64,000 nt of DNA from Selaginella tamariscina (Eukaryota; Streptophyta; Lycopodiopsida; Selaginellales; Selaginellaceae), in assembly GCA_003024785.1 (NCBI GenBank), contig PUQB01000051.1, forward strand, positions 203,194 through 267,193, read 5' to 3'. Shown piece by piece: positions 29,518-60,900 of this stretch (position 1 is the first letter of the stretch; each line of letters opens with the position of its first letter). Under the pieces are notes generated by a model. That model saw only the letters and a list, made by a program, of their open reading frames with translations. It did not search any database and was not told the DNA's origin. A program made the translations under genes and the position numbers.

Positions 29518-29604
29518 GGACCGCAAACACAGTGTTAGAATGGATGCATACACAGCCCAATATATACCAGTACATATACAAATTGTATGTGCTAGAACAT
29601 ACAA

Positions 29605-38415: not shown

Positions 38416-38473
38416 AAATTTGAATTCGAGCCTCTGTGTTTGTGTGTGGAAGATATATATATATTAAAAATGT

Positions 38474-38715
38474 TTACCTTGCATATTCCTTGTAAAACGT
38501 TTTAAGATTTGCATAAGAAGATCCACCTTCAGCAACAGCTATTCTTGCAAGCTTTCCGAGCTCCTTGCATTTCGTCTCATCTTTATCCCGGCTTCACTCC
38601 CCATTAATCCCCTTATTGCTCTGCGATCCCCTCCTTGTCCTTGTAATCCCCATTCCAATACCTTACAAACCTTTCATATATATATATGTGTGTGTGTGTC
38701 TGTATATGTGTAACG

Positions 38716-38754
<39 letters not shown>

Positions 38755-39070
38755 TATACACTCACACACTTAATCCTTTGCCTTCGAGGATCAGTTTACA
38801 GTTGGTATTCTGCTCGCTGTAGCGTGGCCAACCCAGCATTGGAACACCCCCACTCAAGCTTTCGAGTATGGAGTTCCATCCACAATGTGTCACAAATCCA
38901 CCCCTGAATTGTGTTGTAAACTGCAAGCTGTGCTGCCAAGTCACTACCAGTCCCTTCTCACGGTTCCTCTCCATAAATTCCTTGACGACAACATAATAAA
39001 AACTTAGTACTATTTCAGCAACATTAAACTAGACTCTGTAGAACAATCACATGTAGATGCAACAAGCAGC

Positions 39071-39106
<36 letters not shown>

Positions 39107-39952
39107 GCACGCACGCACGCACGCACCACATATACATATTTTCAAGTTATTTTCCCTACCTGACATGTACTAGGCATGTATGTTTGCCTTAAGTACTTAG
39201 TAATTCAAGAGAGTGTAGGATGTATAGCTCTCTCTCCCTATACACACACACACACACACACATACATACCCATACATGATGTATAGGTGTCTGTGTACAT
39301 ACAACGCATGTGTACGTGCACGCACGTACAGCTATAAACCGTAATAAAACGAGCGAACCTTAAGAATAGTCCTGAGGCAAGTCTGTAACCAAGTTTTGAG
39401 GAACTACGAGCAAGAATAGACAATCACTGGCTTCCAAACCATCTGTGAGCTGTTTGAACTCCTCGAATGTTAATATGGAAGCGCTCCCAAATGCGACATA
39501 GAGTACTGAATTGGTGCGTGTTTGTCAAGAAAACGTAATGCATCTGCATCCTCTGGCCGTAAACTCACCTAATTAACAAAGTTTACACACACACACATAT
39601 AAATATATATATAGAGAGAGAGAGTTTGTAGACTCGTAAGTACCTCATGGTTCTTATGTGGAAACAGAGGTCCTATTGAAACGAACTTGCCAGCAATAGA
39701 TTGATCTACTTGCATCAAAAACTTCTGCCTCCATTTCATAAAATGAATTTACAAGGACCAAGGGCTCGAACTCGAGTCTTTTAGCGTATTCGGCATCCCT
39801 GTAATCCTTTGTATAAAACTCATACCACAGGTATATAGGTAATTCTTCCGCCTTTATCTGCTCCAATCCCGGCAGGTATGTTATAATTTGATCAGCATTT
39901 GTTTCTGCAGCAAAGTATCATCATTACCTACTACCTACATACATATCACGTA

Positions 39953-40017
<65 letters not shown>

Positions 40018-40705
40018 ATCTGTTTACCTTGAACAGGACAATGACCATGATCTTAGTTTACCGACGTTAAACTCGATAGAAGCCCAAGTAGCAGCCCCAG
40101 ACCAGAAGCAAACTGAAGTAAACCCAGCCTTACGTGCCGAGAAAGGCGCAGAAAGATGAACATAATCCGAAACCACACTTAATATCTCCAACCTCGGTGT
40201 TAAGTCGAGTTAACAGCTCTACAAGACGGTCTTCAAGTGCTTCTATACAATCCATGAAAACACGTAGTTCACTCAATGTGCTTGTAGCAATCACTGCTGG
40301 AAGCTTTGCCTCTAATGGTATCGATTCTAGTCGTATTTCTTGCTCAGGTATAGGCTTCCTAAAAGCAATTACATTAGTCGCACGTGCGCTCGTGTGTGTG
40401 TGTGTGTGTGCGTGTGAGAGAGAGAGAGAGAGAAACTGAATAAATCATCATAACACCAAGTAAAAATTCTAGCTCTCACGTTTGTAAACATAACGAGATA
40501 TAAACACCGCAACTCTGATCTAGTGTATATACGTATGGATGAGTGCACACACATGTTTTTATATAGAATATATACATCTGTATATATTATCTCGAGTATG
40601 TATATTTAGTTTTTCTTCAGCAGATAAGATTTAAACTGTACAACCATAATCATTAACTGTGTGTGTTGCTATGTTTAAACATACACAATAGCCTACACAG
40701 TGTGT

Positions 40706-40743
<38 letters not shown>

Positions 40744-40924
40744 GGAGGGAGGGAGCTTACCAGGTTCTTTTCACAACCTCGTGAATGCTGTCAATATTGA
40801 TAATGGTGATAACGAACCCTTGAAGAGCGAGTTTTGTTGCTAAGTAGAGCATTGGTGGTATGTGGCCTTGAGCAGGAAAAGGAACTAGAACAATATGTTT
40901 AGATGTCTTCTTTAAAGATGCCAT
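38474..40924 (-). pseudogene. UDP-glycosyltransferase copy E
   Basis: Six exons: about 40761-40924 (MASLKKTSKHIVLVPFPAQG), 40028-40367, about 39645-39909, 39362-39570, about 38775-38985 and 38474 to about 38672. The PSPG exon lost a base in the first third (TWQHSLQF instead of [10 protein letters not shown]), a few bases before GGF, and otherwise reads [11 protein letters not shown] to SEQ. Exon 3 has one extra T (CTACTTGCATC against CTACTGCATC), turning DAVDQS into another frame. Exon 3 also lacks its last codons (DKNEIQ). It lies tail-to-tail with PP2C copy 3. Confidence 0.85.
39957..40016. repeat. (CT)n-(CA)n compound microsatellite
   Basis: In intron 2 of UGT-E, immediately after the donor in transcription sense. 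Equivalent to 15211-15266, 24075-24160 and 28423-28459. Confidence 0.9.
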
Positions 40925-41208
40925 AGCAAATAATTGAAGAATAATTAGTTAATGGAAGTTCAATGAATCAGACGATCTTATTGAAACCCTTAAGGAGAGA
41001 TAAATGTTTCTATGTAGGAGCATTATCTAGAATTATGAGATGTTTCTATGCACACGTATCTAATCCCATTTGACAGCTATATAAAATTCTGACGTATCCG
41101 TTTGACCCAAAGCTAGAGTTACACGAATTTAGAATCTGGATATAAAGACGTGTCTACACACACCATATATGTATGCGTGTATACGTGTTATGATGTATGT
41201 GTATGTGG

Positions 41209-41300
41209 GGACCTTATTCAAAGATACGGAGAATACACATGGGGCAGCTGGTCATGTGATGATATAATTTTTGTCATTGTTAGGCTCTAGTAAATTTGAA
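41209..41300 (+). pseudogene. PP2C last-exon relic
   Basis: GGGGACCTTATTCAAAGATA, then GGGGCAGCTGGTCATGTGAT, then TTTTTGTCATTGTTAGGCTC and AGTAA: a degenerate exon 5 between UGT-E and type II relic b. Confidence 0.6.
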
Positions 41301-41324
41301 TTGAAGCCTGTGTGTGTGTTGTTC

Positions 41325-42475
41325 ACCTTGTATATTCCTTGAAAAACGTTTTCATACGAAGATCCACCTTCAACAGCAGCTATTTCCGAGTTCCTCTGCA
41401 TTTCGTCTCATCTTTATACCGTGTTCACTCCCCATTAATCCCTTATTGTCTCTTCGATCCCCTCCTTGGTCCCATTCCGTCTCCAAGACACTGCCAGTCC
41501 CTTCTCACGCTTCCTACGTAATGATGGCAATATATGTATGCATGTAATGATGATATATATCATGATGCATATTCTCTCTCTCTCTCTCACACACACACAC
41601 GCGCGCGCGCACATACGCACACTATCTGCTTACCTTGAACAGGACAATGACCATGATCTATCACCAGAAGTCCAAGTAGCAGCCCCTGACCAGACCAGCC
41701 TTACGGCACGCACTTAATATCTTCAGCCTCAGTGTTAAGTCGAGTTAACAGCTCTACAAGACGGTCTTTAAGTGCTTCATAGCCAGGAAAAGACGTAGTT
41801 CACTCAATATGTTTGCATCAAAACCTGCTGGAAGCTTTCACTCGAATGGTATATTGATTCTAAGCGTATATCTTGCTCATGTATAGGCTTCCTAAAACCA
41901 CTTACATTAGTCGTGTGTGTGTGTGTGAGAGAGAGAGAGAGACAAAACAGGACACACTACCACGTATTATACATAAAAAATGTACATCATTCTAGCTTCT
42001 CACATTTGTAATAAAAAAACATACAGCAACTTTGGTCTAGCGCATAAACGTATGCATGTGGTGTACAACATAGCACATAAAAACATGGGTGTACAAATAT
42101 ATAGGTAAACCTCAGATCCTGCATGTATACATATACTCTTTATCTATATATGGATATATATTACATCCATTTGTATTTTTCTACAGCAGAGATGATACAT
42201 CTAAACATCTAATCTTTACAACCATAATTACATTAACTGTGTGTGTCTCTCTCTCATACATACGTGTACGTTTATCTGTGATTCTGTATATATATTATGT
42301 ATGTTTAAACATAGCAAGATCTTACCAGGAGCTTTTCACACTGTCAATATTGATAATGGTGATAAGAAAGCCGAGCTTTCTTGCTAAGTAGAGCATTGGT
42401 GGTATGTGGCCTTGAGTAGGAAAAAAACTAGAACAATATGTTTAGCACAAGGTGTCTCCTTTAAGGATCCCATAA
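41325..42475 (-). pseudogene. UGT type II relic b (PSPG exon deleted)
   Basis: Same internally deleted structure as relic a, so the deletion predates their duplication. Exon 1 (about 42325-42473) keeps an ATG and the LPPMLYLA-like codons with small losses (ACACTGTCAATATTGATAAT region). Exon 2 (about 41633-41900) lost the block coding APFSARKAGF. The 3' block (41325-41520) again joins C-terminal codons to the NREKGL codons. No sugar-donor box. Confidence 0.75.
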
Positions 42476-43010
42476 CAAAAAAATACATAATTAGTAAATT
42501 TTAAGAAAGTTTATGCTTCTTATATACATTTTTATATGAAAGAATAGAAGAAGACGTATCTTATTAAATTTTCAAGGAGAAAGAAAATACTTTGTCAAGG
42601 ACAATTGCCGTTTTAGCAAGATTCTGTATTCTAAAATCTGGACATTACGACGTGTAGACGCCCGCGCGCACACACACAGTCAGATATAATACAAGCGAAG
42701 TACCTTTGACTAAGGAGCTCAGTGATCCCATACCATGATGAGGCATACCTGTATAATTATTAATAAGGACTGTGGAAACAAGGATAACGGAAATACAAAT
42801 AGAACATAATCCATTGCCTACTAGGAACATAATAAGGTATCCGGTCTTTCTATTATATGCTAATTTGCAGAGTTCGAAGGAACGCCTGCTGTGTGTGTTA
42901 TATAGATTGTACACCGTGTTTAACACGTGTATACTATAGATTTACTATTACACTGAATGTACTAAAGATTAACAATGAGTAAATGATTAAAGAACGCTAA
43001 CCTTGTTATG
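42476..43010. other. RAD9 3' spacer
   Basis: Matches 34803-35331. Contains the exon-like block at about 42692-42750 described under findings. Otherwise non-coding. Confidence 0.5.
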
Positions 43011-44957
43011 TCACATCCTCCGGTGTGGAGGTGTAGCTTGAACACAGAAACCATCTTCATCACTCTCCTCTTCGGAATCCGCTGCAATCCAGTTGCTCAT
43101 GTCCTTCCCAAACAGCTGTCTTGCACTACATTCTGAAACATGATTAAAGATTATTTATACATATGCGCTATACATGAAATTCATAATAGAATACTTATTC
43201 ATCTGGTATATTCATCTTATATTCATGAAATGTGTGTATGTGCGTGCATTGTACATAGGTATATATAACACGCACGTACCCTGTGAAGCATGTCTATATC
43301 ATTGTCATCCTCGGGAGGTATAGCTACATTCTCCGGTTGCACTGGTTGCTTCTCCTGTGCAGCATTCCGTTGTCTGAAGAACAATGTCAAAGAAAAATAG
43401 CAGCAGACACAGAGAGAGAGAGGGGAATGATAATACACTTATTGGTTATATGTATGTGTAACATTGTAAAACGTAAAGGATACTGTTCATGTCGGTGCAA
43501 TGGAAGCTCCTCAGTGGCATCACCACTATCTGGGAAATTAGTTTCACGCTGCCGTGAGGCACTCTGTTTCCGGGACCTGCTTGTTCGGAGGTGCCTGTAG
43601 TAGAACGATCATCTTAATAGAAATGATATAACCAAGGGGTTTTGACACAAAGACATAGATATAGACAACTTGCAAGGGTACGTGTACACATGCTTGCAGC
43701 TATGTATGCACGTACAGCACCTGAAAGCTCGGACCATATTACAGTGTGGTCAGATCGAGGAGGATTCTCTCTAGGAGGATTGACAGCGGCAGCTTGTGGA
43801 GTTCTGTTCTGCGTAGGAGGTCTAGAAGCATTAATAGGCTGTTGTTGAGCTTCATCAGTAGCACCAAGTTGTGAATTTAGCATTGTCGCAAGCACCAATG
43901 TTGCATCACAATCTGCATTTCCTGCATCGTCTATGCTGAATCTTGGTGCCAAAAGAATTGGACTGCAAACACAGTGTTAGAATGGATGCATACACAGTTC
44001 AATATATACCAGTACATATACTAGAAAAGCACGCACGCACGCGTGCACACACCCACACACACCTGCCGGCTTTCTCAAAGTAAAGCTGTACATCGGCCTC
44101 TGCTCCCTCACAAAAATTCATGAAAGCCTGAAAATAGGAAAGTAACGGAATGTTCTTTCAGTAGTACATGATATACATACACAGGCATCGTTACCTTTAG
44201 CTCTTTCATGCTAAATGTAACGTCTACAGGATCACCAACATGATTATAATCACGCAGTTCTTCAGCAGGATCGATCCATAGCTGTGTATGAAGTGCACCA
44301 TCACTAGTTTCTGCACGATACATTAAGCACTTGAAACTATAAAAGCATAAAGATATTAATATCTATCTCTTAATACTATATATAAGTGTATATATATCAC
44401 GAATTGTGTACATATAAATATGTATAGCAACATGCATATAGTGCAACATACACCTTTAGCAGGATCAATGTAACTTCGAAGTTCAACTGCTTTCCCTTCC
44501 GAATCATTTCGTACAGGCTCGGTTGCAATCAGTGTGATCTCCAAGAGGTTAGACTGGAAATTTGATAAAAGCCTGCTGAGATCACGAGGCCTTGATATCA
44601 AGTAGCTTGAAAAACTGCTCCTTTCAATTGCCACATGTTGCATCTCTATGTCGTTGTTACAAGTTATCCAATACGTCTTCCTTAGACCTGGAAAACGTTC
44701 CATTGATGCGTGTATGTGCATAGATACAACATATGTACTCACCATTGAGGCATCCGATCGTCCATTTGAGTTTCGTAGCATTGCTATCTGGAAGCGTGAT
44801 CGACAGCCGGTCCATGTTGCTAGGTTGAGTTCGCAATACGGTGCACACAGCCTTGTTTTATATCACATCATTAGTATGTCAACGAGCTACAGAAAATGCA
44901 TATGTACTCATGTATGTGCAAACAAAAGAATAACATATTTAAAGCATACCTATGTAT

Positions 44958-45002
<45 letters not shown>

Positions 45003-45440
45003 GTTATCTATATGTATCTAAAACCATCAAACACACACCACACATGCTACCTTGAGAAGTACACTGCATTGTGCAGACTGTGAAGATAATAGATATCTGT
45101 CAAAGAAGTGGCGCCTGAATGTGATGGCTAGGAAAGCAGAACGTGCCGAATTGAGCGATCTCAGTGTCATCTGCAAATAAACAAATATGTCTGTATGTTT
45201 TTATATGCACCTGCATACATATATATATACACACACACACACAATATATATATATATATATATATATATTTGATATGTATGTGTAAACAGTGATAAAATG
45301 AGATTTTTAATACAAATTCCACATATATATGTCGATATTATGTACATTAAACATCATACCTTGTCAGGAAGCGCCTCAATTAGAAGATCCGCTCCAATGC
45401 GCGAGAGGCAGGTGACAGCCCTATGCAGCCTTGATGCCAT
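43011..45440 (-). CDS. RAD9: RAD9 checkpoint clamp protein
   Basis: Subunit of the nuclear 9-1-1 clamp (RAD9-HUS1-RAD1), which is loaded at damaged DNA and activates ATR signalling. Ten exons on the reverse strand: 45360-45440 (MASRLHRAVTCLSRIGADLL), 45051-45170, 44743-44851, 44454-44687, 44195-44310 (HTQLWIDPAEELRDYNHVGD), 44063-44127 (FMNFCEGAEADVQLYF), 43721-43962 (ILLAPRFSIDDAG, DATLVLATML), 43484-43612, 43280-43373 and 43011-43132. Phases join in frame through exon 7. Exon 8 (CCC read as CC) and the exon 9 donor each appear to lack one base compared with copy 1. The C-terminal tail is acidic (SEEESDEDG) and ends VQATPPHRRM, like the VQSTPP tail of plant RAD9. About 440 residues, normal length. 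It shares a 152-bp 5' spacer with the PGM-like gene. Probably the live copy. Confidence 0.88.
44962..45001. repeat. (GT)n microsatellite
   Basis: In RAD9 intron 2; the matching tract in copy 1 lies inverted at 36808. Confidence 0.9.
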
Positions 45441-45592
45441 TGCTGCTTAGCGTGCACTCCATCTGGTTATACCCTAAACCCTCAGAAACCCTAAAACAGG
45501 AGGTTAAATAAGAGCCCTAAAACAGGGGAAGCCCTAAATCAGGGGATATTTTTTAATTTGGAAATTTGAAAATTTAAAAATTATCTGTGCAA
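45441..45592. promoter_or_regulatory. Bidirectional promoter of RAD9 and PGM-like gene, with telo-boxes
   Basis: 152 bp separate the two start codons. Telo-box-like motifs cluster here: ACCCTAAACCCT (45471-45482), AAACCCTAAAAC (45486-45497), GCCCTAAAACAG and GCCCTAAATCAG. Such AAACCCTA motifs are common in plant promoters of replication, cell-cycle and ribosome genes. Motifs are seen; shared regulation is inferred. Confidence 0.6.
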
Positions 45593-46257
45593 ATGCAAGG
45601 GCTTGTACAGGCACAGAGATCTTGGTGGAGCTTCAATTTCAATGTATGCAACAGCCAAGTTAGAAATAAATCGAAATCCCGCTGTGTTATTCAAGCTTCT
45701 TCATCTTCGGATCCATCTGTGTCCACTTCTTCCTCAAGTAAGAAATTAATGAAAATTTGAGTTAAAATTCCTATGTTGGTACTTCAATTTTACCATATTT
45801 TAAACTTATCATGTTGGTTTCAAATTTAACATTTATATAAATGAATGTGTTAAGTTTGTGTAAACTTATGATTTATATTTTAGTTAATGCAGGTAATAAT
45901 TATGGTTTGCGGAGTTTAAATTCATATGAAACAAAGACACTGGAATGGGCAACAGGCGGAGCTCTGGATTTTAGAGGTGCAGCAGAGCCACTTGTCACCG
46001 TCCCCTTGGCTGTTGGTAAGAGAATATACATGGTTAGACATGGATTAAGCTCGTGGAATGAAGAAAACAGAATTCAGGTAATTATATATTTATTAACATA
46101 TTTTAATTATTTTAAAATAAATTATTATATTTTCCAGGGCAGCTCGGATTTGTCAGTGCTTACTGAACAAGGAGTTATCCAAGCTGAAATGTGTAGACAT
46201 GCTCTCTCAAAGATTAAATTTGAACGGTGTTATGCAAGTCCTATATCTCGTGCGAAG

Positions 46258-46301
<44 letters not shown>

Positions 46302-46646
46302 GACGAGTAATATATGAAGTTGGTGTACACAGTCAAGTGCAGAAGTTATATGGTCTGGTAGAGAGGAGCCTCTTATTTACCTTGATAATCTAAGAGAGGC
46401 TAACCTCTTGTTTCTAGAGGGAATGAAAAATGGTAAACTCTATGGTTTAGTAATTTATTATATTATATTAATTATAGGTTATTTAATTATATTTTACTTA
46501 GAGGATGCAAGGAAGCAGTTTCCAGAGCTGTTTAAGGCATGGAGGGAAGACCCGGCCAACTTCAATGTGAATGGAGTTTACCCCGTTGTTAATATTTGGA
46601 GCAGAGCAAAGAAAACTTGGAATGATATCCTCAGTGGACCAGTATA

Positions 46647-46684
<38 letters not shown>

Positions 46685-46970
46685 GTATGTATGTATTACT
46701 GCAGGGAGAGACTGTACTGGTTGTAACACATAAGACCATTCTTCGAGCGTTGATATGCACAGCATTGGGACTACCACCTCAAAGGTAAATAAAATTTATT
46801 TAATTAATTAATTAATTAATCTATATTTATTTAATTTCAGATTACGGTGTATTGACATTAACAACAGCAGCATTACGAGATTTACCGTGAACGAGGAAGG
46901 GGAGCCAATGCTAGACTCGTTGAACTTGACTGCTCACCTGCATGCTAAAGATGTATTTTATTTAAATTAA
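45593..46970 (+). CDS. Phosphoglycerate-mutase-like (RHG) phosphatase, probably plastid-targeted
   Basis: Histidine phosphatase superfamily protein resembling the plant chloroplast PGM-like protein group (Arabidopsis At1g58280 type, recognised from memory). Seven exons: 45593-45737, 45893-46077 (acceptor could also be 9 bases upstream), 46138-46257, 46333-46432, 46502-46641, 46705-46784 and 46841-46970. All phases join without a frameshift. The first 50 residues are rich in Ser, Arg and Asn with few acids (VRNKSKSRCVIQASSSS), like a transit peptide. Catalytic motifs: YMVRHGLSSWNEENRIQGSS, SPISRAK, EDPANFNVNGVYP and VLVVTHKTILRALI. About 300 residues. Substrate unknown; the RHG and second His are intact. 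Intron 3 starts with (GT)n-(GA)n directly at the donor. The only clearly uninterrupted multi-exon gene in the window. Confidence 0.9.
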
Positions 46971-47149
46971 AACAAATATTAATTTTTTAATTATTTTGTA
47001 TTAATGTAATCTCTTAAAATTTTAAAACTAAATACATTTTAAATTATTATCAAATATTTATAAATATATACAGAACAGATAGCAAGATAGATATATTAAG
47101 TTTTTGAAACTCATTTAAATTTCATAAAAAAGACCGTTAATTTAGGTCT

Positions 47150-48130
47150 AGCTCTTGGCTTTCCCGTTGTGCGCACATTCAATCTTCTGAGCGAGGAGTC
47201 TGTCAATCTTCTGTGAGGCGATTAGATTCTCGGAGATATGGTAAGTTTCAAGCTGGATTTGTATAGATTTTTATTTCTAAGCAACGAATTTCTGCCCCAA
47301 ATCCGTGCATGCTTCTTCAGAGTGCTAATCGCCGGGAAGATCGATCTACCCAAGAACAAGGAAATTTACAAGAACATGGTTCATGATACCCATACACTTG
47401 TATATTGTCATACATACACAGGTATGTGAGTGTGTGTGTGTGTTACAGAAACGAATGAGGAATTATATCATATGGTTATCTTAAAGTGCTATATATATAT
47501 TATGTATTCCTCCAGCATATAGTGTGTGTGTGTGTGTGTATACATACATATAACAGATAAGTACTATACAGAAAAGCTTTATGTTTGATATGTATGCACT
47601 CGTCTCAGAGAACAGTTGTGTGTGTGTGTGTGTGCCTTGTAAGAGATACTGTTAGTCCGCTGTATACTGTTATGTAATTTTTGTACTCTTTGTATTGTAG
47701 AAACCAAGTCAAGTAGTGTTGTACTGGAACATGTGTATCCTATATAGAATATATACACGCTCATACAACTACATTTGAAATGCAAGCTTGACAAATTCTT
47801 ATATAAATTATGCATGTACCCATTATACATGTATACATGTAGAATCTGTAATAATCTGTAATGAGAGGAGCATATGTAGTTCTATGTGCATAATAATTAA
47901 TACATATGCTCTCGTTATTACATAATTATGACTCTGTAATACACATAGAACTACATATGCTCCTCTCATTCTCTCTCTCTCTCTCGCACACACACACACA
48001 CACTATTGATGAGATTATATACAGACAGAAAAAAGAAAGCAGGAAGAAGCTCTTTCAGACTTGAGCAACGTGCTTGACCAGCTCAAAGCAATGTCAGTAG
48101 ACATGGGCCAAGAACTTCATAAGTAAACAT
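47150..48130 (+). pseudogene. SNAP33-like relic 1 (plus strand)
   Basis: Mirror copy of the gene at 54241-56034. 47150-47235 matches its 5' region (GCGCACATTCAATCTTCTGA, GAGGCGATTAGATTC); 47310-47390 holds degenerate exon A codons (SAN, PKNKEIYKNMVHD region); 47640-47780 matches intron sequence; 48030-48123 holds exon E codons (RKKLFQT / SNVLDQLKAMSVDMGQELH). The Qb helix exon, linker exons and last exon are missing. Confidence 0.75.
47860..47970. repeat. 29-bp perfect inverted repeat (foldback)
   Basis: Arms 47860-47888 and 47942-47970 are exact reverse complements with a 53-nt loop. It lies in the SNAP relic 1 intron. The equivalent place in the SNAP gene (about 54540-54600) has only a degenerate related sequence. 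Could be a small MITE or a hairpin RNA source; no clear target-site duplication was seen. Confidence 0.75.
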
Positions 48131-48513
48131 TTCAGTTCTAACACGTGTACACACGCACGGGCATGTACTGACTAATAATATAATCTGGGTTAATATAATC
48201 TGGGTTGATTAACCATCTTTACACAAATATATAAAAAGAAAATAACAAAAGAAAAAAGACAGCTTATTAAAGTGTATATTTAATGTGTGAGCACAGAGAC
48301 AGTTATACATGTAGGGATCAATATATACCATAATACATGACTTACTAGTGTAATATTTTGCTTTATATATAAAAGGATATTCACACAATAATATTCAAAA
48401 TGTTTACCCATATTTGTAGGGTTTCTCCGCTACCATCTATGCCAAAAGGAAAGGAATACGCAACCTGCAGAAACAACATTACATGTCTAAAATAGCAAAA
48501 CTCAAAAACTTAC

Positions 48514-49277
48514 TTAATATGTCTTAGTTGTCACCGTGATGTCCTCCGGTTTGGTCTCAGGAACAAACGGGTAATGGGTTCTCCATTACCCTGCCGGAGC
48601 TGGAAGAACCCTGACCCGGTTCCCATGTCGAGACCACCGTGAGCGATATCGAGAGTTTTCTTCTCCCACCTCTCTAGAACCTAAATATAACAAATCTAAT
48701 TATTAAATAAACATATATCTAATGTATATATACATTTACCTGCACAAGACGTTCAAACTTGTCAGTTACCACTTTAACATCGTCGTGTGCCCTTCCAAAT
48801 GCCCTATTCATGCAGTAGCATGCAGTTGCCCCGACTGCGACTGCGGCGGCCGCTACATGAACGCCTTCGATCTAGAAGAAACAGTTAATCATTGTGTGGT
48901 TATGTGTGTATGTGTTCTTTTATGCAGAATTGATAGTGAACAAACCTACTCTTCTATGCCACTTACGATGGCCAGAAACGTCTTGTGTGTACTGTGATGA
49001 CTTGCAATCGGAAGTTACATGTATATATTGGGGAACAAAAAAAAGTGTCTGTTTTACTGTAAAATCAAGAAGAAAAATGAAAAAAATAGTGCATCCTATT
49101 TTTACAAACACAAAATAGATTAATAAATGCTGAAAATCAAGAAAAAAAAAGCTTTTTTTACTGAAAAATATGTAATTATGAAGAAAATCAGAAAATTACC
49201 TTCAAGAACCCGCCGCCGTTGCGGCCGCCTCCGCCTGATGGCGGCACGCTTCCATGCGGTAGTCCGCCGCTCGCCAT
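48514..49277 (-). CDS. Unrecognised small membrane-segment protein, copy S1
   Basis: Three exons: 49200-49277 (26 codons, MASGGLPHGSVPPSGGGG..., Gly-rich), 48740-48871 (44 codons) and 48514-48680. The second exon encodes a hydrophobic Ala/Val segment (VHVAAAAVAVGATACYCMN) followed by a charged stretch ending DKFERLVQ; the third reads VLERWEKKTLDIAHGG, FQLRQGNGEPITR. About 126 residues. The third exon appears to lack one G in a GG pair (CGTTTGTTCCT against CGAATGGTTCC in S2), which shifts the last 20 codons. I do not recognise the family. The layout (Gly-rich N-terminus, one membrane helix, short soluble tail) would suit a small organelle or ER anchored protein. The 5' leader carries two telo-boxes (49293-49323). 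It is the only copy with an ATG in exon 1. Confidence 0.65.
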
Positions 49278-50020: not shown

Positions 50021-50029
50021 ATATTCCAG

Positions 50030-50520
50030 ATGCACGCACCCAAGAACAAGTGTGTGTTTAATTGTATTGTAATTGAAGAATTATATCATATATTTTCTGC
50101 TATATACAACACGTCAATAAATATTGAAGGATTATCATGTATTCCTACAACATATATAGTGTGTGTATGCAACAGATAAGTACTATACAGAAAGCTTAGA
50201 TTCATCCTTTTGTCTCAGAGATGTGTGTGTGTGTGTGTGTTGTAAGAGGTACTATTATTATAAACAGTCGACAGGATTTGCGACACTGTAACAATGCCCT
50301 ACGCGCGTGCTACCTCATGGTAAGCTATACACATATGTGTGTGCGTGTATTTTAGCCAATTGAATACGTTATGTTCCTCACCATTTAAGGGACTTAACAA
50401 TGACAATAGACGTTCAAGCATTTCCTCCGAGCCTGAGTAGCAAACTTCACAGTTCCAGTCTCATCACACATATAGAGGTGTGGGTGTGAAAGCGTGCGTG
50501 TGTATGTGTGTGATGATGTC
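50030..50520 (+). pseudogene. SNAP33-like relic 2 (plus strand)
   Basis: 50035-50060 holds an exon A scrap (CACCCAAGAACAAG); 50100-50300 matches SNAP intron sequence (ATAGTACTTATCTG and GTCGACAGGATTTGCG regions, reverse complement of about 55560-55670); 50385-50470 matches exon D codons (SPLKGLNNDN region, QTSQFQSH), with a stop. No SNARE helix. Confidence 0.6.
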
Positions 50521-50632
50521 CCAGTGGATGGACAAATGAAGAAGTACACATGCTCGTAAGTCATATACATAAAGACGTACACATAAACAACATTACATGT
50601 GATCTATTTCTAAAATAATAAAATTTGAAAAC

Positions 50633-51305
50633 TTATTTAAAACGTTTTAGTGATGTTGCTTCCGTTACCGTGACGTCTCCAAGTTTGATTTCAGGAACCA
50701 TTCGTGTTATTGGCTCTCCGTTTCCCTGACGGAGTTGGAAAACTTCTGACCCCATCCTGATGTCCACTCCACGGGTGAAATCTGGGATTTTCTTCTCCCA
50801 CCGCTCGAACACCTAAATATAACAAATCCAGTTAATTATAACATAAATGTTTAATATAAATAAACATTGAATATAATATATATACATATAATGTGTATGA
50901 TACCTGCACAAGTCGTTCGAACTTGTCGTTTGCTTTCCCAAACTCCTTGTTCATGCAATAGACAACGGTTGCTCCAACTACCACTGCTGCAGCAGCAACT
51001 ACATGAATACCTTCCATCTAAAATAAACAGTTCAATTTTTGTGTGGTCCTGTGTGCATATGCAAACTCCAACAGGCTGCCTTAAGCTTAAACTAAGAAAT
51101 TTTTTTACTCTTATATGCAACTTATTGATGGTCAGAAATGTCTTGTGTGTACTGTGATGACTTGCAAGTGGAAGTTACATCACATATGAAAGTTCAATTC
51201 TCTCTATATATATACGAACGTGTTCCTAGATGGAAACATGAATGGAAAAATCACACCTTGAGAGACCCTCCGCCGCCGCCGCCGCCGCCGCCCCAATTGT
51301 TCGAA
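50633..51305 (-). CDS. Unrecognised small membrane-segment protein, copy S2
   Basis: Exon 2 (50904-51017) starts MEGIHVVAAAAVVVGATVVY and ends DKFERLVQ; exon 3 (50633-50812, 60 codons with stop) reads VFERWEKKIPDFTRGVDIRM, FQLRQGNGEPITRMVPEIK and DVTVTEATSL. Both are fully open and in frame, giving 97 residues if translation begins at the exon 2 Met. Exon 1 (from 51257) still encodes a poly-Gly run (NNWGGGGG..SLK) but has no in-frame ATG, so the start has moved or an unusual start is used. Telo-boxes at about 51304-51337 are kept. This copy best preserves the C-terminal exon. Confidence 0.65.
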
Positions 51306-51789
51306 AAACCCTAGCCTTACGTTGTAAACCCTAGCCTTAAACACCTTATATAGTATTATATGTCGAGCTGTCACAGCGAAGAAAAATATATCAGCACTTC
51401 GCAAAGTGGTAAAGATCCAAATAAACGATATTGTGTTATGTAATTGTCTTATGAATGCATACATACAAATATATACCTCTCATTCATATAATAAATGCCC
51501 GTTTATATATGTCTTATAATCAATTTAGATATCTATAAACATGTAAAGATACGTATGTAAACATTAGGCTGTTGCTTGTGTTTGCATATGTTATTATGAC
51601 GACGATGTGTGTGTTGCATCCATCAGACAACAGTTATTGAATATATACAGCTAATTATATCGACATTATAAAGAATGTATATTATAATATAGACATACAT
51701 ATTAATTGGTTGAATTGCAAGTGAATACTTTGCTCGCAGAGTGTTGTTTCTAGAAAGAAAGAACGGTTTTTCTTTCTGTGTTTCAATAA

Positions 51790-52290
51790 TGATAAACTTG
51801 ATGGAAGCTCCTTTACAATGTGAACATACCCCTTCATTGTCTCAATGAAATATACATTAATATACTGATGCGCATACATGTATAATATACTCAAACCTTG
51901 ACTTGTTCCAATATGCTGTTCCTTCAAACCGAGGAAGTAACGAAGCCGGGCAACTCCAACACCATCACAAAGCTGTATCCAGAGACGAACATGAGAGAGA
52001 GCTTACATCTATTTGCATTTGGTTGAGGCCGCCAGTGCAATCCATGATTATGTATCCATTGGTTTCTTCGGGGGAGCTACATATATCTTATAGAAAATGT
52101 AGGTTACTGAACTTTATATAAGTCTGTGCGTACATAGACAACATATGCATATACATATATATGTATGTCTTACCATGCTGGTTGTTCCACCACACACATT
52201 GTTGATAGTGGTGCTTTAGTTTGGATCCACTGTTGCTATAAGATGTGCATAGTACATTCTCAGAATATTCCAGATGCACGCACAAGAACA
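51790..52290 (-). pseudogene. Plant O-fucosyltransferase gene fragment 2
   Basis: Same fragment as 49560-50020, in the next tandem unit. The donor-side motif is better kept here: SSPEETNGYIIMDCTGGLNQ near 52013-52080, preceded by an exon with SGSKLKHHYQQCVWWNNQHG near 52172-52235. The LLNATL block is damaged (about 51930-51975). 51790-51850 again reads FIETMKGYVHIVKELPS. The GGLNQ motif is what makes the family call secure. Confidence 0.7.
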
Positions 52291-52830
52291 TGGTTCATGA
52301 TACAGGTCCATATTTTGTATTGTGTGTGTGTGTGTGTGTGTTACAGAATGAATTATTGTATTGTAATTGAAGCTTGAAGAATTATATCATATATTTTCTG
52401 CTATATACAACACGTATGTATATAAGCAATATATATTGAAGGATTATCACAACATATATGTGTGCAACAGATAAGTACTATACAGAAAGCTTAGATTCAT
52501 CCTTTGTCTCAGATGTGTGTGTGTGTGTGTGTGTGTGTTGTAAGAGGTACTATTATTATAAACAGTCGACAGGATTTGCGACACTTAACAATGCTCTACG
52601 CACGCGCTACCTCGTGGTAAGCTATACACTATGTGTGTGTGCGCGTGTTTTAGCCAATTGAACACGTTATGTTAATAGGTGTTCCAGATAATTCCTCACC
52701 ATTGAAGGGACTTAACAATGACAATAGACGTTCAAGCATTTCTTCCGATCCTGAGCAAACTTCACAGTTCCAGTCTCATCATATAGAGGTGTGCGTGTGA
52801 GTGCGTGCGTGTGTATGTGTGTGATAATGT
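52291..52830 (+). pseudogene. SNAP33-like relic 3 (plus strand)
   Basis: 52275-52305 carries ACAAGAACATGGTTCATGAT (exon A end, KNMVHD); 52370-52590 is intron-derived; 52675-52790 holds exon D in good condition (GVPDNSSPLKGLNNDN, QTSQFQSH). Mirror orientation to the SNAP gene. The SNARE helices are missing. Confidence 0.65.
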
Positions 52831-53014
52831 CCCAGTGGATAGACACATGAAGAAGTACATATGCTCTTAAGTCATATACATAAAGACGTATGAACCAAAC
52901 AACCGAACACATAAACAACATTACATGTGATCTATTTCTTAATAAAATTTAAAAACTTATTTAAAATGTTTTAGTGATGTTGATTCCGTTACCGTGACGT
53001 CTTCAAGTTTGGTT

Positions 53015-53745
53015 TCAGGAACTATTACGGAGTTGGAAAACTTCTGACCCCATCCTGATGTCCACTCCACGGGTGAAATCTGGGGTTTTCTTCTCCCACC
53101 GCTCGAACACCTAAATATAACAAATCCAGTTAATTACAACATAAATGTTTAATATAAATAAACATATATCTCTGAATATAATATATACATATAATGTGTA
53201 TGATACCTGAACAAGTCGTTCGAACTTCTCCTCGTTTCCTTTTCGAAACTCCTTGTTCATGCAATAGACAACGGTTGCTCCAACTACCACTGCTGCAGCA
53301 GCAACTACATGGATACCTTCCATCTAGAATAAACAGTTAAATCTTTGTTTGTGTGGTCCTGTGTGGTATATGCAAAATCCAACAGGCTGCCTTAAGCTTA
53401 ACTATGGAAAAGATTAGTGAACAAATCTACTCTTAGTGTGTACTGTGATGACTATCAATACATCACATATCAATTCTCTCTCTATATATACGAACGTTTC
53501 CCAGATGGGAAACGAAAAAAAAACACTAGTGCACTCAATTATTACAAACACAATAGATTAAGAATGTTAGCTTCAGTGCCTATTTTCGGGTGCATAATTT
53601 TTAGGGTTTTACATTTAAAATGCAGATTTTGCACCCAAAAATAAGCACTGGTTAGAATTATTAAAGAAAAAAAAGAAAATGGAAAAATCACACCTTCATA
53701 GACCCGCCGCCGCTGCCGCCGCCGCCGCAATTGTTCGAAAAACCC
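53015..53745 (-). CDS. Unrecognised small membrane-segment protein, copy S3
   Basis: Exon 2 (53207-53323) reads MEGIHVVAAAAVVVGATVVY to KFERLVQ, with two extra charged residues compared with S2 (KGNEEKF against KANDKF). Exon 3 (53015-53110) is cut short: about 32 bases coding QGNGEPITRM are deleted, so the frame ends FQLRNSS then stop, removing the conserved tail. Exon 1 (from 53694) encodes NNCGGGGSGGGSMK without an upstream ATG, but with its own Met just before the donor. Telo-boxes at 53738-53768. Probably decaying or a truncated variant. Confidence 0.55.
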
Positions 53746-54240
53746 TAGGCTTACATTGTAAACCCTAGCCAATATAGTATATATGTCGAGCTGTCACAGC
53801 GAAAAAAAATATATCAGCACTTCGCAAAGTGGTAGAGATCCAAATAAACGATATTGTGTTATGTAATTGTCTTATGAATGCATACATACAAATATATACC
53901 TCTCATTCATATAAATAAATGCTCGTTTATATATGTCTTATAATCCTATTTATATATCTATAAACATGTAAAGATACGTATGTAAACATTAGGCTGTTGC
54001 TTGTGTTTGCATATGTTTGTATGATGACCATGTGTGTGTTGCTTCCATCAGACAATAGATATTGAATATATACAGCTAATTATATCGACATTAATTGGTT
54101 AAGTTGCAAGTGAACACTTTGCTCATAGAAAGCTGTCATTTTCTTTTTCTTTTTAATTTATATATGTATATGTGTGTACAGATGGTTTATCAACCCAGAT
54201 TATATTTATTAACACGCTTCATATCAATATACAAAATGTT

Positions 54241-56034
54241 TCATCTGTGGAGAAGTTGTCTTCCGCGTTCATTTGCATTCCTCACTCGAAATTCTAACTC
54301 TGAAACATCTTCATGGAGTCGATCAAGACTCTGATTTTGGCTGTAAAATACATCAGTCAGTACACGCCCATGCGCCTGCATGTGTGTGTGTGTGTGTGTG
54401 TTAGAACTGAAATGCTTACTTATGAAGTTCTTGACCCATGTCTACTGACATTGCCTTGAGCTGGTCAAGCACGTTGCTCAAGTCTGAAAGAGCTTCTTCC
54501 TGTTTCCTTTTTTTTTTCTGTACACAATAATGTGTGTGGGAGTGAAAGGAGTATATGTAGTTCTTTATATGTATGACTTAAAGAGCATATGTACTTCATT
54601 TGTCCAGTCCACTGGGACAGTAATCTACAGAGTCATCACACACATACACACGCACGCATGCATACACACACTCACACATGCGAGCACACACCTCTATATG
54701 TGAATACCTGAACATGAGACTGGAATTGTGAAGTTTGCTCAGGCTCAGAAGAAATTGAACATCTGGTGTCATTGTTAAATCCCTTGAGTGGTGAGGAATT
54801 ATCTGGAACACCTATTAACATAACATAAACAAATAATAGCTAAAGCACACACACATATATACGCGCACGCGCGCGCGTGTGAGTTATAGCTTACCATGAG
54901 GTAAATCCATAGGACCAGTTAGTTCATGTCCCCTCTTGGGTCTCCATGGCTTTGAAAATATACCTCCTAGACTCGCAAGTAATTTCCCCCTGTAAGAAAC
55001 GTATCACACACACACACGCACGCACGCACACAGAGGTGGTATAAATGTTATAGTGTGAATGAAGTGAATAATACCTTGCTAAGCTCTTGCTCAAGGATTA
55101 GAGCACTATCGTGTGTACGACGGATCTGCTGGCCCTGTTCATGGAGCTGTACAATGGTTTTGTTAGCCTCCTGGCGCATATCTTCAGCTACTCGTATGCA
55201 GTTATGTATTGTAGATGTTGTTTCTTCAGACTTATCAACAGCGTGTTGTTGCAACTCTTGCATATCTTCTGGAGTACCTGTAATATATACACATAAGTTG
55301 CGTTAAGATGTCTGTGTGTGTGTGTGAAATTAAAGCATCCACATATTGCAATATTCTACATGTATACATGTATAACTGTGTAATTTATATAAGAACGTTC
55401 CTACATATGCATTTCAAATGTGGTTGTATGAGCATCTATGTAGGATACACATGTTCTAGTACAACACTACTTGACTTGGTTTCCACAATACAAAAAGTAT
55501 AAAAGTTACATAACAGTATACAGCTGACTTGTGTGTGTGTGTAGAGCATGTTGTTACAGTGTCAAAAATCCTGTCGAATGTTTATAATAATAGTATCTCT
55601 TTCAATGGACACACACACAGTCTCAGAAAGGATGGAATTAAGCTTTCTGTATAGTACTTATCTGTTGCACACACACACACTCTGTTGCTTACATATGCAT
55701 GTATATATATGTGTGTGTATATATGTGTGTCTACGTGTACACACACACACACACACCACACATATATATATATATATAGAGAGGAGAGAGAGAGAGAGAG
55801 AGAGTATGTATGTATGTATGTGTGTGTTTGTGTACATGTATACAAATGTGTATGGGTATGGACCTGGATCATGAACCATGTTCTTGTAAATTTCCTTGTT
55901 CTCGGGTACATCTTCACCAAGAAGTGCGTGGCGATTAGCACTCTGAAGAAGCATCTGTGCAGAGGGCGGCAATGCGCTGGATTTGGGGCGGCTCCCATGC
56001 GAGAAGAATCCACTTGATGCGATTCAGCAGACAT
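54241..56034 (-). CDS. SNAP33-like Qbc-SNARE
   Basis: Plant SNAP25 homologue: a soluble Qbc-SNARE that pairs with syntaxin and VAMP in membrane fusion, including cell-plate formation and defence secretion. Six exons: 55864-56034, 55075-55277, 54895-54989, 54708-54811, 54420-54517 and 54241-54340. The Qb helix reads EETTSTIHNCIRVAEDMRQE and LHEQGQQIRRTHDSAL, with the zero-layer Gln. Then LASLGGIFSKPWRPKRG, the linker conserved in plant SNAPs. The Qc helix reads EEALSDLSNVLDQLKAMSVD, MGQELH, then NQNQSLDRLHEDVSELEFRV and a C-terminal LLHR. About 260 residues, slightly short of the usual 300. Exon A changes frame once near 55998 (VDSS to HGSRPKSS), consistent with one missing base. It lacks the palmitoylated Cys cluster of animal SNAP25, as expected in plants. 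Confidence 0.85.
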
Positions 56035-56515
56035 TCCTGTACAAGAATTCGCTGCTAAAAATAAAATTTGTACAAATCCACCTTGAAACTTACTAGATCT
56101 CCTGGAATTTAATCGCCTCACAGAAGATTGACAGACTCCTCCTCGCTCAGAAGTTGAATGTGCGCACAGAGGGAAAGCCAAGAGCTAGACCTAAATTAAC
56201 GGTCTTTTTTAATGAAATTTAAATGAATATCTTCAATATTCAAAAATCAATATATCTACTCCGTTTATATTTTTATTCTATTGCTATCGTAAAGTTTCGT
56301 ATATATATTTTATTAATATTTGAACCCGAAGAAAAATAATTTAAATTGGAACGGATGTGCAAATACTGTTTGTAAATAAGACAAAATCTTTTAAATTTTT
56401 TTTTTTGTTTTTTATTAAAAGTTTACTACTCACATGTAATTTTAGATTAATGTCTAGATTACATTAATACAAATAAATAAAAAATTTAATGTTTTTTAAT
56501 TTAATAAAAGACATC

Positions 56516-56750
56516 TTAGCATGCAAGTGAGCAGTTAACTTCAACGAGTCTAACATTGGCTCCCCTTCTTCATTCACGGTATACACCGTAGTCTGAAAAA
56601 AATAAATATAAATATATTTAAAATAAAACACCTTATATTAATTAATTAATTAATTAATTTAGTTATTTTATTTACCTTTGAAGTGCTGTGCATATCAATG
56701 CTCGAAGAATGGTCTTATGTTTACAACCAGCACAGTCTCTCACTGCAAAT
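56516..56750 (-). pseudogene. PGM-like gene relic (last two exons)
   Basis: Reverse strand carries exon 6 (about 56672-56745, THKTILRALICTALG region with small changes) and exon 7 (56516-56593, VNEEGEPMLDSLKLTAHLHA region), matching 46705-46970. Upstream exons are missing. Its position next to the SNAP gene mirrors PGM next to SNAP relic 1. Confidence 0.8.
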
Positions 56751-56813
56751 ATATATAGAGAGAGAGAGACATACACACGTGTGTGTTTTTATACTTTACA
56801 TATGTTACACACA

Positions 56814-56946
56814 CAGTGATTAAATCCGTAGTCGAAAAATGCTACGGAAATGTTTAATTATTAATTATAATTACTAGTTTACTAATTATTAATCTAGTTT
56901 AATTACTAATTCGTAGCCTTTTTTTTACTACGGCATATATCACTGG
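56814..56946. mobile_element. 133-bp MITE with 9-bp target-site duplication
   Basis: Both ends begin CAGTGAT (right end read in reverse: CCAGTGAT) followed by CCGTAGT, an A-rich spacer and GCTACG, forming imperfect inverted repeats of about 35 bp. Flanked by identical TTACACACA at 56805-56813 and 56947-56955. A 9-bp duplication is typical of Mutator-type elements, and a MULE transposase lies at the other end of the window, but its ends were not compared. Confidence 0.75.
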
Positions 56947-56971
56947 TTACACACATAACATACACACATTA

Positions 56972-57066
56972 ATGGAACGTTTTCCAGGTCTAAGGAAGAA
57001 CAACGACAATTGAAAGGAGCAGTTTTTCAAGGTACTTGATATTAAGACCTCGTGATCTCAGTAGAC
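56972..57066 (+). pseudogene. RAD9 exon 4 relic (plus strand)
   Basis: Starts AACGTTTTCCAGGTCTAAGG as in RAD9 exon 4, skips the WITCNNDIE codons, then reads IERSSFSRYLILRPRDLSR-like codons and fades. It lies just beyond the PGM relic, as RAD9 lies beyond PGM in the left arm, in mirror orientation. Confidence 0.75.
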
Positions 57067-57236
57067 CAGTGTTGTTCATTACAAATGTGAGAAGCTACAA
57101 CGATGTACATTTTTTTATGTATAATTCGTGGTAGTTTGTCTGTTTAGTATGTCTGACTACGTGCTCTCTCTCTCTCTCTCTCTCTCTCACTCACACACCA
57201 ACACACACACACACACACACGCACATGCGACTAATG

Positions 57237-57533
57237 TAAGTTTTAGGAAGCCTATGAGCTCCATTGCAGCTACAGAAGAGGAAGACGAGCAGGATGCAGA
57301 GAGAGACGTACCCAGAAGTCAACTTACATTGAGTGAACTACGTCTTTTCCTGGCTAGTGAAGCACTTAAGACCGTCTTCTAGAGCTGTTAACTCGACTGA
57401 ACACTGAGGTTGAAGATATTAAGTGCGTGGGTTCCGATTATCATCTTTCTGCACCGTAAGGTTCTAGTCAGGGGCTACTACTTGGACTTCTGGTGATAGA
57501 TCATGGTCATTGTCCTGTTCAAGGAAAGCAGAT

Positions 57534-57564
<31 letters not shown>

Positions 57565-57840
57565 AGAGGAGAGAGAGAGAGAAGAATATGCATCATGATA
57601 TATATATCATCATTACATGCATACATATATTGCAATTATTAAGTAGGAACCGTGAGAAGGGACTGACAGTTCTTGGACACGGAATGGGACTGACAGTGTC
57701 TTGTGTTTTTCAAGGAATATACAAGGTGAACTATATATATATATATATATTACACAGAAGCCTTTCACAATACAACACACAGGCTTCAATAATTTTCTTG
57801 AATTCAAACCTAACAACGACAACAATTATATCAGCACATG
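57237..57840 (+). pseudogene. UGT type II relic c (plus strand)
   Basis: Exon 2 (about 57247-57522) begins with an insertion of acidic codons (ATEEEDEQDAERDVP), then LSELRLFLASEALK and a base loss before LELLTRL. Then (GT)n-(GA)n and a 3' block (57640-57730) joining NREKGL codons to the gene end without PSPG. Exon 1 is missing. Mirror counterpart of relics a and b. Confidence 0.7.
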
Positions 57841-58097
57841 ACAGCAGCATATTGCCTCATCTGGACTTATCTTTGACTTCTCACCAATGTACACATCACG
57901 TATACACACGCATACATATATTGTGTGTGTAGACACGTCCTTATACCCAATTCTAAATTATTAGATACGTATCGTGCCACAGAAACATCTCATAATTCTA
58001 GATAATGCTCCTACATAGAAACATTTTATCTCTCCTTGAGGGTTTCAATAAGATCGTCTGATTCATTGAACTTTCATAAATTCTTCAATTATTTGCT

Positions 58098-58689
58098 ATG
58101 GCATCTTTAAAGAAGACATCTAAACATATCGTTCTAGTTCCTTGTCCTGCTCAAGGCCACATACCATCAATGCTCTACTTAGCAAGAAAACTCGCTCTTG
58201 AAGGCTTCGTTATCACCATTATCAATATTGACAGCATTCACGAGGTTGTGAAAAGCACCTGGTAAGCTCCCTCCTCCCTCTCTCCCTCCCTCTCTCTCTC
58301 TCTCTATCTCTCTCACACGCGCGCGCGCGACTAATGTAATTGCTTTTAGGAAGCCTATACCTGAGCAAGAAATACGACTAGAATCGATACCATTAGAGGT
58401 AAAGCTTCCAGCAGGGTTGATGCAAGCACATTGAGTGAAGCACGTGTTTTCATGGATTGTATAGAAGCACTTGAAGACCGTCTTGTAGAGCTGTTAACTC
58501 GACTTAACACCGAGGTTGGAGATATTAAGTGCGTGGTTTCGGATTATCTTCATCTTTCTGCGCCTTTCTCGGCACGTAAGGCTGGGTTTACTTCAGTTTG
58601 CTTCTGGCTGGGGCTGCTACTTGGGCTTCTATCGAGTTTAACGTCGGTAAACTGATAGATCATGGTCATTGTCCTGTTCAAGGTAAACA

Positions 58690-58759
<70 letters not shown>

Positions 58760-60173
58760 GTACGTGATATGTATATATGTATGTAGGTAATGATGGTACT
58801 TTGCTGCAGAAACAAATGCTGATCAAATTATAACATACCTGCCGGGATTGGAGCAGATAAAGGCGAAGAACTACCTATATACCTGTGGTATGAGTTTCAT
58901 ACAAAGCATTACAGGATGGCAAATGCGCTCTCCGTGCTAAAAGACTCGAGTTCGAGCCCTTGGTCCTTGTAAATTCATTTTATGAAATGGAGGCAGAAGT
59001 TTTTGATGCAGTAGATCAATCTATTGCTGGCAAGTTCGTTTCAATAGGACCTCTGTTTCCACAGAAGAACCATGACAAAAATGAGATCCAGGTACTTACG
59101 AGTCTATAAACTCTCTCTCTCTCTCTATATTGTGTGTGTGTGTAGCATTCCACATATACGTTTAAACTTTGTTAATTTAGGTGAGTTTACGGCCTGAGGA
59201 TGCAGATGCACTACGTTTTCTTGACAAACACGCACCCAACTCAGTACTCTATGTTGCATTTGGGAGCGTTCCATATTAACATTCGAGGAGTTCAAACTGC
59301 TCACAGATGGTTTGGAAGCCAGTGATTGTCTATTCTTGCTCGTAGTTCCTCAAAACTTGGTTACAGACTTGCCTCAGGACTATCTTAAGGTTCTGTACGT
59401 GCGAAGTCGTCGCACACATGCGTTGTTTATATGTATGCATATGCACATATATATCATGTATGGGTATGTATGTTTTCAAAACTTGAATTACCTACACTCT
59501 CTTGAATTACCTACTACATAGTATATTACTTAAGTCTGTGCATGCATGTCAGGTAGGCAAATACACGTGATGTGTATGTGTGCGTGTGTGTTTGAGAGAG
59601 AGAGAGAGCTGCTTATGATCTTACTTGTTGATTGTACTACGTGTTTTGTTGATCAAGGAATTTATGGAGAGGAACCGTGAGAAGGGACTGGTAGTGACTT
59701 GGGCAGCACAGCTTGCAGTTTTACAACACACAATTCGTGGGTGGATTTGTGACACATTGTGGATGGAACTCCATACTCGAAAGCTTGAGTGGGGGTGTTC
59801 CAATGCTGGGTTGGCCACGCGACAGCGATCAGAATACCAACTGTACGCTGATCCTCGAACGCAAAGGTGTAGAATTTGTGAGTATGTGTGTAAATATATA
59901 TACATTTATATAGGTGACTTATGTTGTATAGCTATATGAAATGCTCTCTCTCATCTATGTATATCATATTTTGTTTTGTAAGGTATTGGAATGGGGATTA
60001 CAAGGACCAAGGAGGGGATCGCAGAGGCAATAAGGGGATTAATGGGGAGTGAAGACGGGATAAAGATGAGACGAAATACAGAGGAGCTTGGAAAGCTTGC
60101 AAGAATAGCTGCTGCTGAAGGTGGATCTTCTTATGAAAATCTTAGAACGTTTTATAAGGAATATGCAAGGTAA
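58098..60173 (+). pseudogene. UDP-glycosyltransferase copy F (plus strand)
   Basis: The only forward copy. Exons: 58098-58261 (MASLKKTSKHIVLVPCPAQG; Cys where others have Phe, and Ser for Pro after GHIP), about 58351-58682, 58810-59091, 59181-59389, 59658-59877 and about 59983-60173. The last exon is fully open: EGIAEAIRGLMGSEDGIKMR, SSYENLRTFYKEYAR then TAA, which fixes the gene end for all copies. Single-base losses occur in exon 2 (twice) and exon 4; exon 5 has a 2-base gain and 1-base loss just after AVLQH. The PSPG box otherwise reads [20 protein letters not shown] and ends with DQ, whereas copies A-E end in EQ. It is in mirror orientation to copy E. Confidence 0.85.
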
Positions 60174-60364
60174 ACAAGGTATAAGGTAAATATCGACGTA
60201 TCTTCATCTAATCTCATGTTTATATTCAGTTAGGTTTATAACTTGTAAAATTAATATAATTTGTATTTATTAATTATTTTTAATATTTATGAACATATAC
60301 TACACGTTTATATATTACATGTATATATGTGTGTGATGTGGCAAAGATATACAGAAGCTAAAAC
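60174..60364. other. 3' flank of UGT-F
   Basis: AT-rich. Its distal part matches the reverse complement of 17630-17690, the left flank of the gypsy insertion. Confidence 0.5.
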
Positions 60365-60422
60365 GCGCCCGACAGAAATCGAACCGCGACTTTCTACTTA
60401 GGAAAAGACGCTCTACAGGCGC
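60365..60422 (-). pseudogene. tRNA-Arg(CCU) relic with a shortened D arm
   Basis: Reverse strand reads GCGCCTGTAGAGCGTC, TTTTCCTAAGTAGAAAGTCG, CGGTTCGATTTCTG and GGGCGC. Most of the D loop is missing. It pairs with the relic at 17574 as part of one duplicated module (60300-60670). Confidence 0.75.
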
Positions 60423-60900
60423 TTTGCAAAATAATAATAAATAAAATAAAAATAAAAATGAGAAACAGGCTTTAACCATGTTTAAAGTTCCTTTTTTAAA
60501 TTTCTTGTGTGTGTGAGGGAGAGACATACAAAATATAAAACATAAACGCTGTTGTGGCTGATGGACTGAAAAGTCAATATTTAAACACACACACGCTGCT
60601 GTGCGTGGTGTCACTCTGAGGGGGCGTGTGTGGTACATTGTGAGTCCGTCCTCTACAAAGCCTAAGGTAGCAGAGTTCGTACCAATGTGTGCGTAGACAT
60701 CACACGCGCGCGTGGAAAGATACATAGAACCTTCATATATTATATATATATATATATAGCGAATAGCACATTTCTAAAGTGTCTGATAGGTAGATAACAA
60801 GGAGACAACTATGCATTTTATGCACAGGCACGCACACCATTATATAAGTGCACGCACACAAAACCTACCATGTTCATCGCTTAACGGGCAAGTCCTCCAT
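60423..60900. other. Duplicated non-coding module
   Basis: 60423-60670 matches the reverse complement of about 17390-17573 (TGTGGTACATTGTGAGTCCG, CCTCTACAAAGCCTAAGG). No gene. Confidence 0.6.

Follow-up and report, generated by a model that had tools for sequence, protein, structure and literature searches.

What kind of duplication left the genes of one locus of Selaginella tamariscina in mirror-image order, and how many separate gene losses does that order record? The locus lies in contig PUQB01000051.1 of GenBank assembly GCA_003024785.1, within a stretch of 64,000 nucleotides (positions 203,194 to 267,193 of the forward strand) that was analyzed as a whole and is called the window below; all coordinates are positions in it. 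The locus carries RAD9, a PGM-like gene, a SNAP gene and glycosyltransferase genes of the UGT family. A preliminary description had proposed a compact palindrome at 38474..60670, with losses of single-copy genes sorted between its arms. Judging from sequence comparisons, we consider it probable that the locus, in what looks like a plant nuclear genome, arose through several steps of local segmental duplication, with an inverted copy nested in tandem copies and decay by a few deletions.

The inverted chain and the gene content of its arms

Self-comparison of the window, together with a more sensitive arm-versus-arm comparison, revealed an ordered inverted chain linking a left arm (38453-48265, plus strand) to a right arm (60193-54130, minus strand). 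The chain is formed by six of the 15 rows of the arm-versus-arm comparison. From the outer ends inwards, these are UGT type I (38455-40432 with 60193-58278, E=0), the UGT 5' end with a truncated UGT type II (40725-42018 with 58296-57072, E=0), one RAD9 exon (44573-44717 with 57064-56958, E=2e-16), a block from PGM exons 6-7 through the 5' part of SNAP (46661-47853 with 56786-55344, E=4e-107), a SNAP exon (47991-48158 with 54544-54384, E=2e-44), and the SNAP 3' flank (48192-48265 with 54206-54130, E=6e-13). The remaining nine rows lie off the chain and are mostly cross-matches within the UGT family and short matches resembling simple repeats. Since several unrelated genes form collinear homologous blocks in opposite orientation, the locus is an inverted segmental duplication. 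The mirror-image gene order proposed earlier is therefore borne out, although the mirror stops at 60193 and not at 60670. Between the arms lie 5.9 kb (48266-54129).

RAD9 matched PF04139 in two pieces (5.7e-07 and 3.8e-09). The PGM-like gene matched histidine phosphatase branch 1 (PF00300) at 4.7e-10 in one piece and at 0.0018, below the cut-off, in the other, and its spliced model reached 4.9e-44 in Pfam; its product presumably resembles the plant CA1Pase. The SNAP exon matched V-SNARE_C (PF12352) at 2.3e-04, also below the Pfam cut-off, and the spliced SNAP model matched SNAP-25 with both SNARE motifs. PF00201 was matched by an exon of UGT-B (8.2e-15) and by the majority UGT protein (7.8e-15). 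The latter also matched plant UGT structures, the best being 2pq6 (1.2e-47), which we take to be a UGT85 enzyme, so that the UGTs of the window would be UGT85-like. With a UDPGT domain and a C-terminal PSPG-type stretch, they belong to the plant family 1 UGTs. The alignment of UGT copies A-F and the matches of the majority protein place UGT-E, a type I copy with six predicted exons, at 38453..41260 on the minus strand; the same alignment and self-comparison place its mirror copy, UGT-F, at 57890..60193 on the plus strand. The truncated type II copies are E2 on the left (41309..42530, minus strand), recognized by an internal deletion common to F2 and to D2 of a tandem unit described below, and F2 on the right (57060..57850, plus strand), delimited by the UGT II alignment.

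Full exon sets of RAD9 and PGM are present in the left arm only, and that of SNAP in the right arm only, in agreement with the preliminary description. Thus, exons absent from one arm are kept in the other in both directions, which constitutes reciprocal loss. On the left, PGM-L (45593..46970, plus strand), defined by the histidine phosphatase match and an exon model, has seven exons and a frame of 299 codons, open over 900 nt. RAD9-E (43011..45462, minus strand) has ten exons predicted from Pfam, the RAD9 alignment and an exon model, the edges of exons 8 and 9 being approximate. Self-comparison identified what is left of these genes on the right: PGM exons 6-7 (56456..56786, minus strand) and part of one RAD9 exon (56958..57064, plus strand). 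Conversely, SNAP-R in the right arm (54241..56037, minus strand) has six coding exons according to the spliced SNAP-25 match and the exon model, and its left-arm relic S0, delimited by arm comparison (47018..48265, plus strand), consists of a 5' exon, part of coding exon 1, an intron, and coding exon 5. Upstream of the SNAP exon, the left arm also has an inverted repeat at 47860-47970 (77% over 112 bp in self-comparison), whose outer 29 bases read as perfect; similar-looking sequence was noticed by eye at the equivalent place on the right, about 54540-54620.

The surviving copies PGM-L, RAD9-E and SNAP-R presumably work. RAD9-E has one clear frame break, in exon 8, and a second one in exon 1 that vanishes if translation starts at an in-frame ATG further downstream. 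In SNAP-R, the frame is clearly broken once, in coding exon 3, and perhaps again in coding exon 1, similarly depending on the start ATG. The breaks in both genes may be assembly errors.

Deletion junctions, frameshifts and the number of losses

Junction comparison located two deletions in the right arm. At 57065..57071, UGT II abuts the RAD9 exon directly, and therefore ~2.55 kb are missing relative to the left arm (42022-44570). At 56787..56957, the RAD9 exon is joined to PGM intron 5 across a 132-bp insert, and ~1.9 kb are missing relative to 44742-46642 on the left. The insert (56814-56945) resembles a miniature inverted-repeat transposable element (MITE), with inverted ends CAGTGAT...CCGTAG and a 10-bp flanking direct repeat (TGTGTGTAAC); its end pattern is found nowhere else in the window.

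RAD9 and PGM stand head to head, their first ATGs being ~130 bp apart, and hence the ~1.9-kb deletion removed the 5' parts of both genes and the DNA between them. The 130 bp between the ATGs (45463..45592) are a putative shared promoter region. As one right-arm deletion accounts for both of these 5' truncations, there has been about one independent loss per arm. This weakens the earlier suggestion that duplicate losses were sorted between the arms: with one SNAP loss on the left and a shared RAD9/PGM deletion on the right, there is no statistical case for sorting. Because the deletion at 56787-56957 took both 5' parts and the intervening DNA together, one might tentatively suppose that head-to-head gene pairs with a shared promoter are lost as one unit after inverted duplication, and that promoter-sharing pairs, not single genes, govern reciprocal loss here, but we regard this as doubtful.

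Frameshifts are a different matter. When the UGT I copies of full length were aligned (A, B, D, E and F; UGT-C was excluded, as it lacks exon 1), their coding parts showed 41 private frame-breaking gaps, spread over all five copies at 6 to 10 each, and 40 of the 41 are 1-2 nt long. Stops created by substitution, on the other hand, number zero in these copies, where the 110 distinct changes would predict 4.9 (Poisson P about 0.007); the single apparent stop of UGT-C falls in its misaligned exon 1. The 1311 aligned bases of RAD9 from units D and E contain 27 substitutions; gaps of 1-2 nt number 17 and longer ones 5. Such an excess of indels in UGT and RAD9 suggests residual assembly errors, to which many of the single-base frameshifts are probably due, perhaps because repeats are hard to polish. 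Frameshifts alone are no basis for calling relics here, and whole-exon losses are sounder.

Tandem copies, divergence and competing explanations

The mirror lies inside a tandem array. In self-comparison, 37488-45577 is a direct copy of 29608-37489 (unit D, plus strand), each containing a PP2C piece, UGT I, UGT II and RAD9, so that the UGT/RAD9 block of the left arm (unit E) is the final unit of the array. The RAD9 relic of unit D (34.9-37.5 kb) has lost most of exons 3-4 and contains an inverted piece of exon 3. Another RAD9 relic, found by self-comparison and RAD9 alignment, follows UGT-C at 29020..29597 on the minus strand. UGT-C itself (26911-29597) keeps exons 2-6, with a type II-looking exon 2 and type I-like exons 5-6, and continues into this relic; it is possibly a product of conversion or fusion. 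PP2C pieces occur beside UGT units A, D and E (12661-13700, 29608-30600 and 37488-38450 in self-comparison); the sole piece tested had a PP2C Pfam match of 9.4e-05 at 12524-12970.

The spacer between the arms (48266..54129) also consists of duplicates, as seen from direct repeats, SNAP pieces and the alignment of a gene called Y here. A gene-Y relic, Y0, lies at 48.47-49.02 kb and is followed by two units in direct repeat, at 49.54-51.67 and 51.76-54.09 kb; both consist of a SNAP fragment on the plus strand, gene Y on the minus strand, and a flank. Comparison with SNAP places the fragments at 50133..50611 (S1) and 52282..52886 (S2); the gene Y copies Y1 and Y2 are at 50560-51260 and 52880-53700. 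Gene Y (MEGIHVV...) gave no Pfam match, whether searched piecewise or as a 97-aa model with two exons. The Kimura two-parameter (K2P) distance of Y0 is 0.40 to Y1 and 0.44 to Y2, compared to 0.10 between Y1 and Y2; Y0 is the older relic. While the two arms of the preliminary description stand, it had overlooked the tandem array, both RAD9 relics and both central SNAP fragments, and "compact palindrome" is not an apt name for a mirror with such surroundings and such a spacer.

Divergence was calculated after removal of simple repeats and of aligned stretches below 60% identity in windows of 24. Between the arms, noncoding K2P is 0.190 (0.156-0.225, n=607) for PGM-SNAP, or 0.311 (n=71), 0.173 (n=466) and 0.201 (n=70) by part. 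The UGT I value is 0.112 (0.082-0.147, n=475) in the pairwise and 0.145 (0.107-0.182, n=511) in the six-copy alignment, and that of UGT II 0.083 (n=192); the RAD9 E/F comparison is small (76 coding and 31 noncoding sites). The proposed check for a single age of all paired segments hence gave only rough uniformity, the significance of the differences depending on the alignment. Divergence between units D and E is also uneven: 0.035 for RAD9 noncoding sequence, 0.082 for the RAD9 5' end, and 0.051-0.058 for UGT I. In the tree of UGT noncoding sequence, 94% bootstrap supports a group of F, D and E apart from A and B, with K2P of 0.134 for F-D, 0.145 for F-E and 0.058 for D-E. The UGT II copies D2, E2 and F2 share their internal deletion and group against C2 at 91%; therefore, the inversion is later than the truncation. 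Inversion may have come before the D/E tandem duplication, as would agree better with the intron distances. F was not found as a sister of E in whole-UGT trees, and such a pairing had no support in UGT introns.

In the sequence of events that we favor, a block of UGT type I, truncated UGT type II, RAD9, PGM and SNAP would have given rise to an inverted copy of itself, and direct tandem duplication would also have enlarged the left side (units D and E) and the center (SNAP-Y units). Deletions would then have eroded the redundant copies. The right arm would have lost ~2.55 kb with the 3' part of RAD9 and, in a second deletion, the RAD9/PGM intergenic region with the adjoining 5' parts of RAD9 and PGM, whereas the left arm would have lost coding exons 2-4 and 6 of SNAP. 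The losses were presumably neutral.

Several observations weigh against this scenario. The difference in divergence between UGT and PGM-SNAP was reached in 1 of 2000 permutations with the pairwise alignment and in 219 of 5000 with the six-copy one. The outer flank of the right arm (60285-60668) is similar to DNA beside UGT-A (17402-17686) and unlike the PP2C flank of units D and E, and in coding sequence UGT-F groups with B at 90-91% bootstrap. The D/E sister pairing in UGT introns has only 56% bootstrap, and the informative noncoding sites (6 AB, 4 DE, 4 DF, 2 AF and 0 EF) leave DE and DF tied. The UGT II tree, joining F2 with E2 at 65%, favors inversion after the D/E split. By distance, SNAP-R seems nearer to S1/S2 (0.095-0.173, and 0.033 over 31 bases) than to S0 (0.109-0.233), whereas 9 and 12 informative sites, unrooted and partly in simple repeats, join S0 and SNAP-R against S1 and S2; this grouping, which runs counter to the distances, may only reflect the closeness of S1 and S2. 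Finally, the ratio of nonsynonymous to synonymous substitution rates of the UGTs, 0.46-0.97, is high for active genes, making it possible that these copies are real pseudogenes.

The unequal divergence, the UGT-A-like flank and the grouping of the UGT-F coding sequence with B would all fit if the PGM-SNAP and UGT blocks had entered the right arm separately, by two or more inverted insertions at different times. We nevertheless find this unlikely, as the blocks run collinear in the two arms, the UGT II truncation of D and E recurs in F, and the divergence difference weakens under the other alignment. One clean palindrome with gene-by-gene reciprocal loss, as first proposed, would account for the mirror order and for why RAD9, PGM and SNAP are each left with a single complete exon set; with four copies or fragments of RAD9 and four of SNAP in the window, two of each lying outside the arms, and with a single right-arm deletion common to RAD9 and PGM, it is quite improbable. 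Chance similarity of the arms was rejected given the E-values and the divergence, as was a hairpin artefact or haplotype duplication. The many apparent single-base indels do raise suspicion of misassembly, yet the noncoding K2P of 0.11-0.19 between the arms is above what hairpin or haplotype copies would show, and the arms carry private deletions and an insert, so that an artefact from a hairpin or misjoined haplotypes is hardly credible.

Neighboring features and the place of the locus among known duplications

Just outside the right arm, there are two tRNA-Arg(CCT) genes in opposite orientation (61167-61240 and 61920-61992). Between UGT-A and UGT-B (17900-22200), long reading frames resemble, by eye, a Gypsy-type retrotransposon, and Pfam also yielded a PPR match among sequences of the window, which together with the UGTs points to a land plant. 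Among the papers listed by a literature search, none dealt with this locus, but the search was not directed at the species and thus says little about published work.

The event is of a known and ordinary kind in the evolution of genomes, and its traces can be followed here in unusual detail. As in local segmental duplication with differential (reciprocal) loss of paralogues, a block was duplicated, different copies were kept in different places, and deletions left relics. Unlike in ordinary reciprocal loss, the two arms here face in opposite directions across a few kb, amid tandem copies, and therefore the losses cannot be assigned to just two loci. Tandem paralogues with relics and possible conversion are also known from plant UGT clusters, whereas here RAD9 travels with the unit as a passenger, joined in the arms by PGM and SNAP. 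Rearrangements of the DUP-TRP/INV-DUP type presumably likewise mix direct and inverted copies of one segment, but the copies here are old and decayed, and no junction proves a replication-based origin.

The locus offers a readable worked example of decay in nested inverted and direct duplications, and of two traps in reading it: treating the losses in a head-to-head gene pair as separate events, and taking probable assembly indels for gene death.

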